21,563 nt of DNA from positions 1 through 21,563 of the IMG/VR virus record IMGVR_UViG_3300017739_000140, one strand, 5' to 3'. Source of the stretch: a virus. The translations under genes were made by a program, and so were the position numbers. The notes beneath the pieces were generated by a model that saw only the letters and a list, made by a program, of their open reading frames with translations, made no database searches and was not told the DNA's origin. Below, one piece after another: positions 2,197 through 21,563 of this stretch (position 1 is the first letter of the stretch; each line of letters opens with the position of its first letter).

Positions 2197-2580
2197 ATGG
2201 ATCCACTAAATCAAATATTATTTGACGATAAATCTTTTAGTGATTTATTAAAGGAAATTCATGGTAACCAAAAGAAAAAAGCTAAACAATTAGCTCAACT
2301 TATAGCAGAATTACGTCCTTTAGTACAATCATTAGGTGATGCTACTGTAGTAGTCCCATTAATAAAAGAATATATGGAAATTAGCGTTAAAAACGATGAC
2401 GCTCTCCTAAAAATGGCAGCTATTGTTCAACGTTTATCTACGGGTACAGTAAATTCAGGTGATGGTGGGTTATTAACAGAAGAAGAAATGGCTCAACTTC
2501 AAGATTTAACTGAAGAAATAGCTAAAACTGTTGAAGAACCTAAACAATTAGAAATACCTGATCAAAATGAGACTAGCTAG
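2197..2580 (+). CDS. Hypothetical helical protein, first gene of the spike/hub unit (127 aa)
   Basis: This is a soluble 127-aa protein with long predicted helices. Residues 20-70 are rich in Lys, Leu, Ala and Gln, then come a Gly/Ser-rich break (about 83-92, VNSGDGG) and an acidic C-terminal helix that ends EIPDQNETS. There is no signal peptide, membrane segment or recognisable catalytic motif. It sits right after a candidate promoter and overlaps the following hub-like gene by 14 nt, suggesting translational coupling and a tail- or baseplate-assembly role. It could alternatively be a late regulatory partner of the sigma factor, since T4 gp33 is a small protein of similar size, but no sequence feature decides this. 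I do not recognise the family. Confidence 0.75.
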   Translation: MDPLNQILFDDKSFSDLLKEIHGNQKKKAKQLAQLIAELRPLVQSLGDATVVVPLIKEYMEISVKNDDALLKMAAIVQRLSTGTVNSGDGGLLTEEEMAQLQDLTEEIAKTVEEPKQLEIPDQNETS

Positions 2581-3487
2581 AGTTCAAGAAGTTATAACAG
2601 ACAAAGAACTTCAAGAAAAATTTTATAATTTATATGGGAAAGAAAATTCTATAGGTTCTATTTTATTTACTTATTTAGATGAACCTACACCTATAAATTT
2701 TAATCCATCTAATTGTAAAGTAGCTAAACCTTTAAATTATAATATATCACATTATCCTGTAGCAGGTGAATTAGTTCATATTCTTATAGAACCTAATGAA
2801 AGATATAACCAAAATGGCTCTAAAGATTTTTATTATCAAGCTCCTTTATCTATTTATCAACTACCAAATAGTGATGCATATCCAGATAGTTTAGACGAAA
2901 ATGATGAATTTTATAAGGGACAATATTTTCCTGAGTTAAATAATATAAATCCTTTACTTCCATATGAAGGAGATATTATGATAGAGGGTAGATTTGGCCA
3001 ATCAATAAGATTTGGTTCAACTATTGATAATACAAAAGTTACAAAACCTAATAGATGGAGTAATGAAGGAAGCATAGGAAATCCTATTACTATTATTAGA
3101 AATGGACAATATAGTAACCCTAATATTGAAAATGGGGAAAGAATATTAGAAAATATGGATGAAGATAATTCTAGTATATATCTTTGTTCTAGCCAACAAT
3201 TATCTAATTTTCAACCAGCTTCTTTACATGATGAATCATATGGTCAAGATATATTTAAAGAAATACAAAAAGAAGAACCTATAATTTCAGATTCAGAAAT
3301 GACATCAGATGTAGAAGAAGATATAGAATTAAATAGAGCATCTAATTTACCAGCAGAAGAATTACAACAATTAGAAGAACCAATAGAAGATACACCATAT
3401 GCTTATTATGATGTAGCCCAAACAGAATTAATTGATAATGATTTTTTTGATGATGCTGAAAATTTACAAAATACTAATAACACATAA
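2567..3487 (+). CDS. Baseplate hub/spike protein, probable OB-fold gp5 N-terminal-like
   Basis: This 306-aa structural protein probably forms the base of the central tail spike. Residues 64-100 have the beta-strand pattern expected of the OB-type domain of gp5/gpV spike proteins (PVAGELVHILIEPN). Residues 133-181 carry YEGDIMIEGRFGQSIRFGS followed by a Trp/Asn region and GNPITIIRNGQ, then an Asp/Ser strand at 198-212 (DNSSIYLCSS). I associate this motif set with hub/spike proteins of marine T4-like phages. The last 80 residues are acidic and low in hydrophobics, and probably disordered. The start overlaps the upstream gene by 14 nt and the stop is 2 nt before a peptidase gene. Assignment rests on motifs and context, so gp5-like is likely but not certain. 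No lysozyme domain is present. Confidence 0.65.
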   Translation: MRLARVQEVITDKELQEKFYNLYGKENSIGSILFTYLDEPTPINFNPSNCKVAKPLNYNISHYPVAGELVHILIEPNERYNQNGSKDFYYQAPLSIYQLPNSDAYPDSLDENDEFYKGQYFPELNNINPLLPYEGDIMIEGRFGQSIRFGSTIDNTKVTKPNRWSNEGSIGNPITIIRNGQYSNPNIENGERILENMDEDNSSIYLCSSQQLSNFQPASLHDESYGQDIFKEIQKEEPIISDSEMTSDVEEDIELNRASNLPAEELQQLEEPIEDTPYAYYDVAQTELIDNDFFDDAENLQNTNNT

Positions 3488-3489
3488 AA

Positions 3490-4074
3490 ATGGCTTTAGA
3501 TTTTTACTACGAAGAATATTATGTATCAAAAACTGCTAATAAAAATGGCATTAATAATACACCGGGAATAGATGCTAATTTAGGTTCTGAATTTTCAGAG
3601 GCTACTATTAAAAATAATTTACAAAAACTTCATAATAATGTTATAAGTCCCTTAAGAACCGCTTTCCCTCCTGCTACAAATTCAGGAGGAAAAGATATAT
3701 GGATATCATCGGGATATAGATCTACAGCTTTAAATTTACGTGTAGATGGAGTAGAAAATTCACAACATAAATATGGATATGCAGTTGATGTATTTAGTCT
3801 TAAAAGTCCTACTTCTTTAATATTTAATTGGTGTTATCAAAATCTACCTCAATGGGGTCAATTAATTTGGGAATATCCTGAATTTGGGAATTGGCAAATA
3901 GGTAAGGCAAATATTTCATGGGTTCATATATCATATGTTGAAGGAAAAAATAAAAACAATACATCTATAGCAACTAAAAGAGAAGATTTACACGAAATGT
4001 ATAAATCCGAAAATACAACTAGAAAAGGAGATTATACTCATGGTATAAAATTAGCAGACGAAAATTTATTATAA
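3490..4074 (+). CDS. Peptidase M15-like tail-associated peptidoglycan hydrolase
   Basis: This 194-aa protein matches the D-Ala-D-Ala carboxypeptidase/endolysin fold of peptidase family M15. Visible are the substrate-binding SGYRS (residues 74-78, Arg77), the zinc motif SQHKYGYAVD with His93 and Asp100, and a C-terminal WVHISY with the third ligand His146. An acidic residue near 128 (Glu in IWEYPEF) is a candidate general base. M15 enzymes cleave peptide cross-links in peptidoglycan. No signal peptide is present. It lies between the hub-like and needle-like genes, where T4 gp5 carries its lysozyme domain, so it probably works in virion-borne cell-wall penetration. A lysis endolysin is the main alternative. 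The next ATG overlaps its stop (TAATG). Confidence 0.8.
   Translation: MALDFYYEEYYVSKTANKNGINNTPGIDANLGSEFSEATIKNNLQKLHNNVISPLRTAFPPATNSGGKDIWISSGYRSTALNLRVDGVENSQHKYGYAVDVFSLKSPTSLIFNWCYQNLPQWGQLIWEYPEFGNWQIGKANISWVHISYVEGKNKNNTSIATKREDLHEMYKSENTTRKGDYTHGIKLADENLL
3667..3689 (+). other. GC-rich hairpin within the M15 peptidase gene
   Basis: CCTCCTG (3667-3673) pairs perfectly with CAGGAGG (3683-3689) across a 9-nt loop. Three more A-T pairs are possible outside a single bulged C (TTT at 3663-3665 with AAA at 3690-3692). It lies in the linker before the SGYRS motif. A functional role is unproven; it may only reflect the Pro-Pro and Gly-Gly codons. Confidence 0.3.
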
Positions 4075-4547
4075 TGGCATATACACCTCAAGCACCCGGT
4101 ACATATCAGGGAAATCAAGTATTAATTAATTCAGATAGATTAATTTTTAATGCTAAAGAAGATAGTATCTTATTATTTTCAGATAAAGCTATTGGGTTTA
4201 GTACTAATGGTAGTTTTCATTTTGATACTAGTTCAGATGAAAATGAAAGTAAATTCGTAGTAAATTCTCCTAATATTTATTTGGGATTAGAATTTGATAA
4301 TACTTTACCTGAACAACCAGCAGTATTAGGTAATGAATTAGTATCATCTTTAGTAGAAATAGTAGATTTAATAGCAAAAATATATCAAGATTTATCATTT
4401 AGTATATCTTTTATATCAACATCACCTGGTACTCCTACAGGATTAAATCCTACTAATTATAATATAATGCAAAAAAGAATAAGAGAAATACAAAATGTTA
4501 GAGATAGTTTTGAATCATTTAAAAGCCAAAACACAAAATTAGTATAA
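4074..4547 (+). CDS. Spike needle/tip-like protein, gp5 C-terminal-like
   Basis: This 157-aa beta-rich protein shows short alternating hydrophobic strands typical of trimeric spike beta-helices: QVLINSDRLIFNAKEDSILL (15-34), then FSDKAIGFSTNGSFHFD (35-51) and FVVNSPNIYLGLE (61-73). After PAVLGNELV (82-90) comes a helical tail at about 91-107. The pattern of short turns with Asp, Asn and Lys between strands resembles the C-terminal prism of gp5/VgrG-like spikes. The start codon overlaps the stop of the peptidase gene by one base, so the two are likely coupled. It is inferred to complete a spike whose hub and hydrolase parts are encoded by the two preceding genes. It could instead be a separate tail-tip protein. 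Confidence 0.6.
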   Translation: MAYTPQAPGTYQGNQVLINSDRLIFNAKEDSILLFSDKAIGFSTNGSFHFDTSSDENESKFVVNSPNIYLGLEFDNTLPEQPAVLGNELVSSLVEIVDLIAKIYQDLSFSISFISTSPGTPTGLNPTNYNIMQKRIREIQNVRDSFESFKSQNTKLV

Positions 4548-4548
4548 T

Positions 4549-5502
4549 ATGTCAACTCAGAGTATAAAAAATATAGTATCTTCTCAATTAGATTCAGTTT
4601 TAGTAAATGCTAAACAAAAAATTAAAGATGAGGGTAAGAAAAAAATTATAGAATTAAAACAACAAATTCCTACACCACAAGAATTAGCTCAAAAATTAAA
4701 AGTAGATATTAATGAAGATTCTTGTAGTGTTAAAGGTGCTAATAAATTTCAAGATAAATTTAAAATAATAGAAGAAAAACTTAAAATAATAGAAAACTCA
4801 GCAACTAGTGCTTTAGATACACTTAAAGTACCAGAAGAAAAATTAAATGATATTTTAAACGCAGCAGATAGTGGTCCTATTGGTAAAATCAAATCAGCAG
4901 AAGAAAATTTAAAAGGTATAGTAGAAATATTTCAATATATAATTACTTTATCTCCTTTATTATTTTTAGCAAACTCGGGTCCTACAAGCTCGGGGGCCGT
5001 ACAAAACGATATAACTGAAAAAAGAAATTTAGCAAAATCTAGAGTAGGAGAATATTTAGCTTTATTTTCTACAATTCCCCTAATGATATTACATTTTCAA
5101 AATCAAGCTAGACAAACACTAACTCCCTTAAATTTATTAAAATCTAAAATCCAATTTATAAAAAATGAAGTAATAAAATTAAGATTATTTTTAGCGGGTT
5201 TATATTTAACTTATGAACAAAGATGTGATAATTTTGTAAATAATAATAATGATGATAATAATATTGATAATAATAATGGAGGTGAACTTTCTGATTTAGA
5301 TAAACTTTTACAGCTTTTAAAAGAGCAATATGGTGATGTATATCAGCAGTTAATTCAATCATCAAATTCATTAGCTATTCAAAGAGTTTATACTCTTAAT
5401 GAAAACTTTGAAGAAAACTATAATATTAGTTTTAAAACAATTAATCCTAGTTTAGGAGAAGGATCAGAATACCCAGGAACATCTTCTACATTACCAGATT
5501 AA
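4549..5502 (+). CDS. Helical tail/baseplate-associated protein with an Asn/Asp tract (317 aa)
   Basis: This 317-aa protein is mainly helical, with coiled-coil-like stretches at about 1-50 and 64-125 (Lys/Glu/Ile/Leu-rich) and 195-225. A central hydrophobic region (about 125-145, IFQYIITLSPLLFLA) and another near 167-180 (EYLALFSTIPLMILHF) could insert in a membrane or pack in a helical bundle. Residues 231-243 are a low-complexity NNNNDDNNIDNNN tract. The last 45 residues are Ser/Asn-rich. It begins 1 nt after the needle-like gene and ends the unit, with an A-rich gap following. I do not recognise the family. Possibilities from context are a hub-associated, membrane-interacting or tape-measure-related protein, with no decisive motif. 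Confidence 0.7.
   Translation: MSTQSIKNIVSSQLDSVLVNAKQKIKDEGKKKIIELKQQIPTPQELAQKLKVDINEDSCSVKGANKFQDKFKIIEEKLKIIENSATSALDTLKVPEEKLNDILNAADSGPIGKIKSAEENLKGIVEIFQYIITLSPLLFLANSGPTSSGAVQNDITEKRNLAKSRVGEYLALFSTIPLMILHFQNQARQTLTPLNLLKSKIQFIKNEVIKLRLFLAGLYLTYEQRCDNFVNNNNDDNNIDNNNGGELSDLDKLLQLLKEQYGDVYQQLIQSSNSLAIQRVYTLNENFEENYNISFKTINPSLGEGSEYPGTSSTLPD
5239..5277 (+). repeat. AAT/GAT trinucleotide tract within the 317-aa gene
   Basis: Thirteen codons are almost all AAT or GAT and encode a run of Asn and Asp with one Ile. Such tracts can change length by replication slippage in units of three, keeping the frame. It probably encodes a flexible, exposed linker. Confidence 0.75.
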
Positions 5503-5993: not shown

Positions 5994-6401
5994 ATGCCTA
6001 TAATTAAAGGAATAAGAAGAATTAACCCTTTAAATCTTAACAAAAATGTTACGATTGGGGTAGCTTTTCCTTTAAATGAAAATAATATGTTTTCAGGTAC
6101 TGAAACTATAGAAGATCAAAATAGAGCTAATCTTATTAGTATTTTATTAACACAACCTGGAGAAAGAATTAACCAACCAAATTTTGGAGTAGGAGTAAAA
6201 AATTTATTATTTGAAAATAATATAGATTTAAATTTTCTAAAAACCCAAATTCAAACCCAAGTTTCTCAATTTTTAGGTAATATAAAAATCACAGAAATTC
6301 AAACTGGCTCTTCAGATGACCAACATACAATTTTTATAAGTATAACATATAAATCTTTATTAGATAATGAGGAAGATTCTATACAATTAAATTTTAACTA
6401 A
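5994..6401 (+). CDS. gp25: Baseplate wedge protein, gp25/gpW-like
   Basis: This 135-aa protein matches the gp25/gpW family, the small wedge component that contacts the first tail-sheath ring and triggers sheath contraction (T4 gp25 has 132 residues). The conserved core is visible: an N-terminal strand (IGVAFPLNENN, 21-31), a helix with NRANLISILLTQPGERI (43-59), then NQPNFGVGVKNLLFE (60-74), and a C-terminal alternating beta pattern ending SIQLNFN. The GER-x-x-x-P-x-FG-x-G motif is the family hallmark. It is followed by the gp6-like gene with a one-base TAATG overlap, the same adjacency as W and J in P2-like tails. The AAGGAAAAT-like sequence before its start is the nearest thing to a Shine-Dalgarno in the window, but is probably chance. 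Confidence 0.88.
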   Translation: MPIIKGIRRINPLNLNKNVTIGVAFPLNENNMFSGTETIEDQNRANLISILLTQPGERINQPNFGVGVKNLLFENNIDLNFLKTQIQTQVSQFLGNIKITEIQTGSSDDQHTIFISITYKSLLDNEEDSIQLNFN

Positions 6402-8293
6402 TGGCTTACAACAAAGTATTAAATACACCTAAGGAAAAAGAGATAAAATATTTAAATAAAGATTTTAATTCATTTAAAGATAATCTTATTGAGTTTACTC
6501 AAACTTATTTTCCCGAAAATTTTAATGATTTTAGTGAAGGTAATCCAGGTATGATGTTTTTAGAAATGGCTTCATATGTAGGAGATGTTTTATCTTTCTA
6601 TACCGATAACCAAATTCAGGAAACATTTTTATCTACAGCACAAGATAAAGAAAATTTATACAATATGGCATATGCCATGGGATATACCCCTAAAACAACT
6701 TCAGCTGCTAGTGTTAATTTAGATATATCTCAATTAGTTCCTTCAAAATTAATAAATGGTTCTTATGAACCAGATTATGATTACTCATTAGTTATTAGAG
6801 CTAATTCTACTTTTAATTCTTCTGAAGGATCATCTTTTTATATAGATCAAGATGTAGATTTTACATATTCATCTTCTTTAAGCAATATGGATGTAAGTAT
6901 ATTTCAATATGATACTTTAAATAACCCAGAATACTATTTACTTAAAAAAACTGTATCTTCAATTTCAGCTGAATCTAAAACTCAAACATTTGCTATTGGA
7001 GAACCAGAAAGATTTAAAACCCTAACATTATTTGACACAAATATTATATCAATTGAATCAATAACTGATTCAGATGGTAACATATATTATGAAGTACCTT
7101 ATTTAGCCCAAGATACTATATTTGAACAAATAACTAATATAGGTGCTAATGATCCTACTTTACAACAATATAATAATGAAACCCCTTATTTAATTAAACT
7201 AAAAAAAGTTCCTAGAAGATTTATATCTAGAGTCAAACCGAATAATCAAATAGAAATTCAATTTGGGGCGGGTATAAGTGATAAAGCAGATGAACAAATA
7301 ATTCCAAACCCAGATAATATAGGTTTAGGAATAAAAGATGGTAGATCTAAATTAGATAAAGCTTATGATCCCTCAAACTTTTTATATACAAAAGCATATG
7401 GTCAAGTACCATCAAATACAACATTAACAGTAACATATTTAGTTGGAGGAGGTTTATCTTCAAATGTAAATAGTAATACAATTATAGAACAAGGTACTTT
7501 ATTTATTACTAATAAACCTAATTTAAATTCTGGGATGTTAAATTTTGTTAAATCTTCTGTAACATCTACAAATATAGAAGCAGCTAAAGGTGGTGGGGCT
7601 GGTGATAGTATAGAAGATGTAAGACAAAATGCTATAGCTGCATTTTCAACCCAAAATAGAACAGTAACTAAAGAAGATTATATAATAAGAACTTTATCTA
7701 TGCCACCACAATTTGGGAGTGTAGCTAAAGCTTATATAACACAAGATGATCAAATGTCTCCTTTATCAACTGAACCTAATCGAATCCCAAATCCTTTAGC
7801 ATTAAATTTATATACATTAGGATATAATCAAGATAAAAAACTCACTACACTAAACACAGCTACAAAAACTAATTTAGCTACTTATTTAGAACAACATAGA
7901 ATATTAACAGATGCTATTAATATTAAGGATGCATTTATTATTAATATAGCATTAGATTTTGAAATAACTACTTTTAAAAATTATAATAATGAAAGAGTAT
8001 TACTCCAATGTATTACAGAATTAAAAAATTATTTTAACATAGATAAATGGCAAATAAATCAACCTATAATAATATCTGATATTAAAAACTTAATAGGAGC
8101 GGTAGATGGAGTACAAACAGTAGAAACAGTAGAATTTATAAACAAAAACGGCCTTATAAATGGATATTCACAATATATTTATCCTATTAATCAAGCTCTT
8201 AGAAATGAAGTACTTTACCCATCATTAGATCCTAGTATATTTGAAGTAAAATTTCCCGATATTGATATTAAAGGACGCGTAACAACATATTAA
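6401..8293 (+). CDS. gp6: Baseplate wedge protein, gp6 / baseplate J-like
   Basis: At 630 aa this is close to T4 gp6 (660 aa), the wedge protein that dimerises to form the inner baseplate ring. The N-terminal region (about 18-95) has the family pattern: DFNSFKDNLIEFTQTYFPE, then a GMMFLEMASYVGDVLSFYTDN segment and a NLYNMAYAMGYTP turn. The central baseplate-J part, about 390-450, has the Gly-rich loop AAKGGGAGDSIEDVRQNA followed by NRTVTKEDYIIRTL, as in gpJ proteins. The C-terminal third, with mixed alpha/beta segments, is where gp6 homologues dimerise. The start overlaps the gp25 stop by one base and the next gene begins 1 nt after its stop, so stoichiometric co-expression is likely. This is one of the safest assignments here. 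Confidence 0.9.
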   Translation: MAYNKVLNTPKEKEIKYLNKDFNSFKDNLIEFTQTYFPENFNDFSEGNPGMMFLEMASYVGDVLSFYTDNQIQETFLSTAQDKENLYNMAYAMGYTPKTTSAASVNLDISQLVPSKLINGSYEPDYDYSLVIRANSTFNSSEGSSFYIDQDVDFTYSSSLSNMDVSIFQYDTLNNPEYYLLKKTVSSISAESKTQTFAIGEPERFKTLTLFDTNIISIESITDSDGNIYYEVPYLAQDTIFEQITNIGANDPTLQQYNNETPYLIKLKKVPRRFISRVKPNNQIEIQFGAGISDKADEQIIPNPDNIGLGIKDGRSKLDKAYDPSNFLYTKAYGQVPSNTTLTVTYLVGGGLSSNVNSNTIIEQGTLFITNKPNLNSGMLNFVKSSVTSTNIEAAKGGGAGDSIEDVRQNAIAAFSTQNRTVTKEDYIIRTLSMPPQFGSVAKAYITQDDQMSPLSTEPNRIPNPLALNLYTLGYNQDKKLTTLNTATKTNLATYLEQHRILTDAINIKDAFIINIALDFEITTFKNYNNERVLLQCITELKNYFNIDKWQINQPIIISDIKNLIGAVDGVQTVETVEFINKNGLINGYSQYIYPINQALRNEVLYPSLDPSIFEVKFPDIDIKGRVTTY

Positions 8294-21218: not shown

Positions 21219-21563
21219 ATGTGGTATTATCAAGAAAAACAAATAAACGAAATTTCTGACCTTCCTAAGGAAGCATTCGGGTTTATTTATCAAACAACTC
21301 ACTTACCAACTGGAAAAAAGTACATTGGTAAAAAATCTTTAATTTATAATTTAAAGAAAAAAATAGGCAAAAAAGAAAAAGCACTTTGGGAAGGAAAAGG
21401 ACGACCTCCTATGTACAAACAAGTACAAAAAGAAAGCGATTGGAAAACTTATTATGGTTCACATTCTTTTATTAAAGAAGCAAATAATGAAGATTTAGAA
21501 AGAAAAATACTACATGTGGCTTTTAATAAAAAAGAACTTACATATTTAGAATGTAAATATCAA
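21219..21563 (+). CDS. GIY-YIG-like nuclease-domain protein, 3' end outside the window
   Basis: An ATG at 21219 opens a frame without stop to the window end, giving 115 residues. Near the N-terminus is a GIY-YIG-type signature: FGFIYQTTHLPTGKKYIGKK (residues 21-40), where GFIY stands for GIY and KYIG for YIG, separated by 10 residues as in the family. Further on are WKTYYGSHSFIKEA (82-95) and ERKILHVAF, consistent with the following helix and a possible catalytic Glu. GIY-YIG domains cut DNA; in phages they occur in homing endonucleases and in nucleases that process or degrade DNA. Gly-Phe replaces the usual Gly-Ile. It follows the fibre gene by 24 nt with no promoter motif. The exact role is unknown. 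Confidence 0.7.
   Translation, partial: MWYYQEKQINEISDLPKEAFGFIYQTTHLPTGKKYIGKKSLIYNLKKKIGKKEKALWEGKGRPPMYKQVQKESDWKTYYGSHSFIKEANNEDLERKILHVAFNKKELTYLECKYQ

Follow-up and report, generated by a model that had tools for sequence, protein, structure and literature searches.

Three consecutive genes of a 21.6-kb marine phage contig (the window, by which we mean the whole stretch of DNA analyzed) likely encode a single membrane-piercing tail spike. We propose that an OB hub is docked to the tube hub, that an M15 zinc peptidase is held between hub and needle, and that a needle capped by a helical hairpin completes the structure, with a gene boundary in place of the proteolytic cut of T4 gp5 (Table 1).

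Table 1. Genes and features of the spike locus in the window
Feature	Position	Strand	Description
Upstream protein	2197..2580	+	127 aa; overlaps the hub gene by 14 nt
Spike hub	2567..3487	+	306 aa; OB domain and neck ~1-226, then an 80-aa acidic tail
Acidic hub tail (linker/adaptor)	3245..3484	+	motif YDVAQTE; tail present in most relatives with a separate M15 gene
M15 zinc peptidase	3490..4074	+	194 aa; probable spike-borne cell-wall enzyme
Needle protein	4074..4547	+	157 aa; probable trimeric beta-helix ~11-72, then a C-terminal helical hairpin
Downstream protein	4549..5502	+	coiled-coil-like by eye; directly 3' of the needle gene
gp25-type baseplate wedge protein	5994..6401	+	PF04965, 1.6e-9
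gp6-type baseplate wedge protein	6401..8293	+	PHROG 219, 1.7e-19

The probable split spike locus

The initial annotation had placed three consecutive ORFs here, separated by a 2-nt gap (hub/M15) and a 1-nt overlap (M15/needle), and the ORF coordinates bore out both the genes and their junctions. The genes do abut as described, but packing of this kind is general in the window: nearly all of its genes abut their neighbors, so close spacing does not in itself point to a special link. Comparison of relatives with the window gave dN/dS values below one for the hub (0.28–0.33), M15 (0.22–0.53), and needle (0.15–0.19, the lowest), indicating real genes under purifying selection. Counting the window, 35 non-redundant loci in which M15 is a gene of its own show the order hub, M15, needle, and the gp25-type and gp6-type wedge genes lie just 3' of the spike genes, a baseplate synteny.

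Because the genes abut and the frame changes between them, the split could be only apparent, with ribosomal frameshifting or a sequencing error joining hub, M15, and needle. We regard this as extremely improbable. Among 27 loci, the relative frame takes all three values at both the hub/M15 and the M15/needle junctions, which led us to reject programmed frameshifting; ORF starts at the junctions are nearly all ATG, and the same split is present in many independent contigs. The gap lengths at both junctions also differ among relatives.

Hub and needle as two halves of one spike

Homologs of the hub were detected by tblastn in Flavobacterium phage immuto, Microcystis phage Mel-JY01, and LR756508, and homologs of the needle in immuto and Mel-JY01; the needle match of LR756508 came from a blastp search of its ORF. 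The corresponding proteins (378, 503, and 485 aa) comprise hub and needle as a single chain. Aligned with such fused spikes, the hub is homologous up to about residue 226 and the needle from about residue 11 of the 157-aa protein, and the M15 gene takes exactly the position of the hub–needle linker. The genes flanking the spike on both sides are common to the window and the fused relatives. The proposal that hub and needle are parts of one spike was thus upheld, since they are homologous to the two halves of a single polypeptide; judged by this alignment, hub and 157-aa protein belong to a single spike, of which the latter forms the needle half.

Neither hub nor needle had a Pfam or PHROG identity, and profile searches of PDB sequences with the two alignments returned chance matches only (for the needle, VgrG 8gra at E 0.4). 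The AlphaFold2 model of the hub had a pLDDT >90 over most of residues 1–215. A plain Foldseek search with this model gave nothing under E 0.001, with R2 pyocin spikes among the top rows. Using VIA-align, the P1 spike ranked top (Z 6.7 over 129 residues), and the spikes of P2 gpV, AlgoCIS, VgrG, Mu, and R2 pyocin reached Z 4.8–5.8, mostly over residues 1–219; generic OB proteins reached similar Z values but mostly covered only residues ~1–100. These Z values are middling, and Z <8 is weak if taken alone; the spike assignment rests on the longer coverage by spikes together with the fused relatives and synteny. The predicted fold, an OB domain leading into a spike as in the gpV/VgrG/gp5 superfamily, agrees with the OB/hub-like character first suggested for the 306-aa protein, which on this model is a contractile-tail spike hub with a predicted OB domain.

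The monomer model of the needle (pLDDT 87.5) has an extended N-terminal half followed by a helical hairpin at residues ~86–149, so that, unlike the beta-rich needle initially envisaged, the protein is not beta throughout. A test for period-2 beta alternation on the needle was negative. In a later, post hoc test, hydrophobicity along the needle alignment recurred every ~8.2 residues (shuffling p 0.001, the period having been chosen after looking), and the same test recovered a period of 8.2 in T4 gp5C (p 0.05). An 8-residue period was missing from the controls (hub, M15, T4 OB, and T4 lysozyme). Foldseek found no PDB match for the monomer model, as expected for a single chain of an intertwined trimer, and we did not count this as support. 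A PAAR tip was looked for and not found. The model and the periodicity suggest that the needle is probably a short trimeric beta-helix with a helical hairpin cap, and the spike as a whole would be trimeric.

The M15 peptidase as the probable cell-wall cutter of the spike

The middle protein had been read as an M15 peptidase, and profile matches agree (PF08291, 1.4e-8, 35.3 bits against a cut-off of 23.2; best PHROG match, an endolysin family, 1.7e-20). The only solved relative found was 1LBU (profile match 7.6e-5), a muramoyl-pentapeptide (D-Ala) carboxypeptidase. The zinc-site residues of the family are intact. Across 36 homologs, H93, D100, and E131 never vary, whereas conservation is at least 90% at E128 and H146; H93 and D100 align with the SRHMYGHAAD motif of 1LBU, and H146 is placed in the zinc site by its motif. 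The M15 family contains both carboxypeptidases and endopeptidases. The sequence supports a peptidoglycan peptidase, whose target may be the cross-links, as first suggested, the stem peptide, or just the terminal D-Ala.

Every searched contig that has an M15 gene has a single one, located at the spike. The suggestion that M15 stands in place of the T4 lysozyme was corroborated by gene order and by hub–M15 fusions in six non-redundant relatives. These fusions, together with other wall-cutting domains in the same place in relatives, indicate that M15 is very probably the cell-wall cutter of the spike: an exchangeable cartridge in the position that lysozyme has in T4 gp5.

Could M15 instead be a host-lysis endolysin that lies among the spike genes by chance? 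Among PHROGs it best matches an endolysin family, its homologs in Bacteroides phages are in or beside genes annotated as endolysin or holin, and no Amidase_2 or phage lysozyme was found elsewhere in the partial contigs. We nevertheless consider this unlikely, given that relatives have hub fusions with M15 or with other wall-cutting domains and that M15 lies between hub and needle, which in relatives form a single spike protein. M15 might also be carried in the virion but off the spike (the tube hub or tape measure being possible sites), leaving a spike of hub and needle only. There are precedents in P1 (PMC9024508) and Anabaena phage A-1(L) (PMC10966104), whose spikes are enzyme-free and whose wall-cutting domain is on the tape measure or hub, and the 48 fused relatives have no enzyme domain in the spike; an off-spike location is highly unlikely here, since it is this same hub protein to which M15 and other enzymes are fused in cis.

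A census of spike layouts

Two scans of IMG/VR with the hub and needle alignments yielded 155 further loci, hub relatives being represented by the best 80 of 588. After near-copy removal, 114 spikes were classified with purpose-built HMMs. The most common layout was a fused hub–needle without enzyme (48/114, immuto and Mel-JY01 among them), followed by separate hub, M15, and needle genes (29/114, two of which, L014 and L128, end before the needle). Six spikes had a small ORF, the acidic tail alone, between hub and M15; six joined hub and M15 in a single chain followed by a needle gene; and six had a hub–Amidase_2 chain followed by a needle gene. Another C-terminal extension of the hub preceded a needle gene in 11, an enzyme-less split of hub and needle was found in six, and two layouts were interrupted by contig ends. 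The 11 other extensions included M23 (L028), VanY (L121, and L125 by similarity), DUF2272 (L124, and L126 by similarity), and lambda-type lysozyme (L141). The insert type was not recognized in five of the 58 insert-bearing spikes (hub extensions L061 2593-5007, L068 3081-5477, L129 4215-5918, L132 1989-4565, and L136 4521-5909); the extensions of L061 and L068 exceed 500 aa, and that of L129 has a cysteine-rich stretch.

The needle was its own gene in all 58 insert-bearing spikes, compared with six of 54 insert-free ones, an association that rests on few independent events because the pattern is mostly one clade; an independent-pairs test of enzyme against split needle was without power. On the hub tree, for which supports are SH-aLRT only, 59 separate-needle rows formed one group (support 93), and separate needles occur outside this main group as well (L042; L055, L070, and L078; L141). 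M15 switched between joined and separate at least four times on this tree, and the six layouts whose tail stands as its own ORF grouped together (support 98).

An acidic hub tail with a candidate docking motif

The 80-aa acidic tail of the hub follows the region of homology with fused spikes, which ends near residue 226, and is a separate ORF in six relatives (L019, L021, L111, L112, L116, and L117). A motif, [YFH][DE][IVN]xx[TS][EDS], was found in 28 out of 35 separate-M15 spikes, located in the acidic tail or in the tail ORF, and in none of the 77 other classified spikes, the pattern having been derived from the positive set itself. Spikes without it comprise six hub–M15 fusions, 17 other insert-bearing spikes, six enzyme-less split spikes, and 48 fused spikes; for this distribution, the hub tree provides just two independent contrasts with good support, and an independent-pairs test had no power. 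The hub–M15 fusions show related but changed stretches by eye (e.g., YYEVEENTD in L033). The motif is a candidate docking site for the M15 protein.

A broader scheme, which we put forward tentatively and consider less likely than not, is that these spikes are built of four swappable modules: the OB hub, an acidic adaptor bearing a docking motif similar to YDIAPTE, the wall-cutting enzyme, and the needle. The hub–adaptor and adaptor–enzyme joints would be covalent or not depending on the phage, the enzyme–needle joint would always be a gene boundary replacing proteolytic maturation, and the motif would recruit a separate enzyme.

Neighboring genes

The position of the downstream gene after the spike is kept in L002–L005 and L007, and an ORF in the same place also follows fused spikes. 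In the fused-spike phages this gene ranges from ~250 to >800 aa (L073 7163-8716, L133 6433-8898, L040 6375-8060), sometimes with weak Ig-like or CarboxypepD_reg matches. The 127-aa upstream protein is found immediately before the spike even when the phage is distant (immuto, Mel-JY01, and LR756508).

We noted several further features of these contigs. In Mel-JY01 (L008 10361-11392), a gene annotated as chitinase (COG3179), with no match in Pfam, lies directly 3' of the fused spike and is perhaps another separate wall enzyme. The fused spike of a 484-kb phage record (L010 7506-8963) carries HTHPSPVGPTGPP near its C-terminus, which recalls the HxH metal-binding tip of P2 gpV. An incomplete ORF at the contig end of the window (21219-21563) is GIY-YIG nuclease-like by eye.

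Discussion

In the proposed mechanism, the spike proteins would be incorporated into the virion, with the OB domain of the hub docking the spike onto the tail tube hub. M15 would be held between hub and needle, probably by docking to the acidic hub tail. The needle would pass the outer membrane, the hub tail would carry the peptidase to the cell wall, and M15 would then open the peptidoglycan. With a gene boundary as the enzyme–needle joint, no proteolytic cut would be needed and the needle would be free to leave the enzyme; we infer that the role of the T4 proteolytic cut falls to the separate needle gene, which would allow needle release.

Taken together, these loci are a naturally occurring set of variants on the T4 gp5 plan: every joint is found both broken and continuous, and one enzyme takes the place of another. 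With this set, one can test whether enzyme activity depends on a needle that can be separated, and how an enzyme that is not covalently attached stays on the spike. It also assigns a probable wall-cutting function to genes that at present lack annotation across a sizable group of marine phage contigs.

Comparison with known spikes

Mature-virion T4 gp5 consists of two chains. The window shares with T4 gp5 the order of OB domain, wall-cutting enzyme, and needle, the location upstream of gp6-type wedge genes, a needle period of ~8 residues, and an enzyme that in the mature form is no longer continuous with the needle, owing to proteolysis in T4 (PMC3004832) and to a gene boundary in the window. 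T4 gp5 trimerizes through its needle and is cut at Ser351/Ala352 in the lysozyme–needle linker, and its lysozyme is kept at ~10% activity until the needle leaves (PMC3004832). Differences are that T4 uses one gene where the window has three, and a Phage_lysozyme domain where the window has an M15 peptidase, and that the window needle ends in a helical hairpin. The label "T4 gp5-type" given initially thus stands for fold, order, and synteny, but not for sequence: Gp5_OB (PF06714) and Gp5_C (PF06715) had no match in the window proteins or fused relatives while the T4 control matched, and an hhalign comparison of 46 fused relatives with T4-like gp5 profiles gave no match, so we make no claim of gp5 family membership by sequence.

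Other spikes vary the same plan. The P1 gp5, P2 gpV, Mu, R2 pyocin, and VgrG spikes share the OB and needle fold but are single polypeptides with the enzyme absent or elsewhere. Immuto and Mel-JY01 have homologous hub and needle and the same neighbors, but the two are fused with no enzyme between them. The gp5 of KVP40-like phi-pp2 is without lysozyme, and in Ackermannviridae gp5 (phage A221) the lysozyme is replaced by CHAP, another wall-cutting domain, in a single polypeptide whose Gp5_OB is recognized. Genes 154/155 of Methylophilales phage Melnitz EXVC044M (Kyanoviridae) encode a Gp5_OB protein with VanY (M15-type) and then a separate Gp5_trimer_C needle; there, the OB and M15-type domains are one chain, the sequence is clearly of the gp5 family, and the second gene is much longer (667 aa).

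A search of the open-access literature found no published split gp5 with M15, nor a description of the fully split hub, enzyme, and needle, of the split tail ORF, or of the range of enzymes within one lineage. Partial precedents are known in the OB–VanY protein of Melnitz and in the cleavage of T4 gp5.
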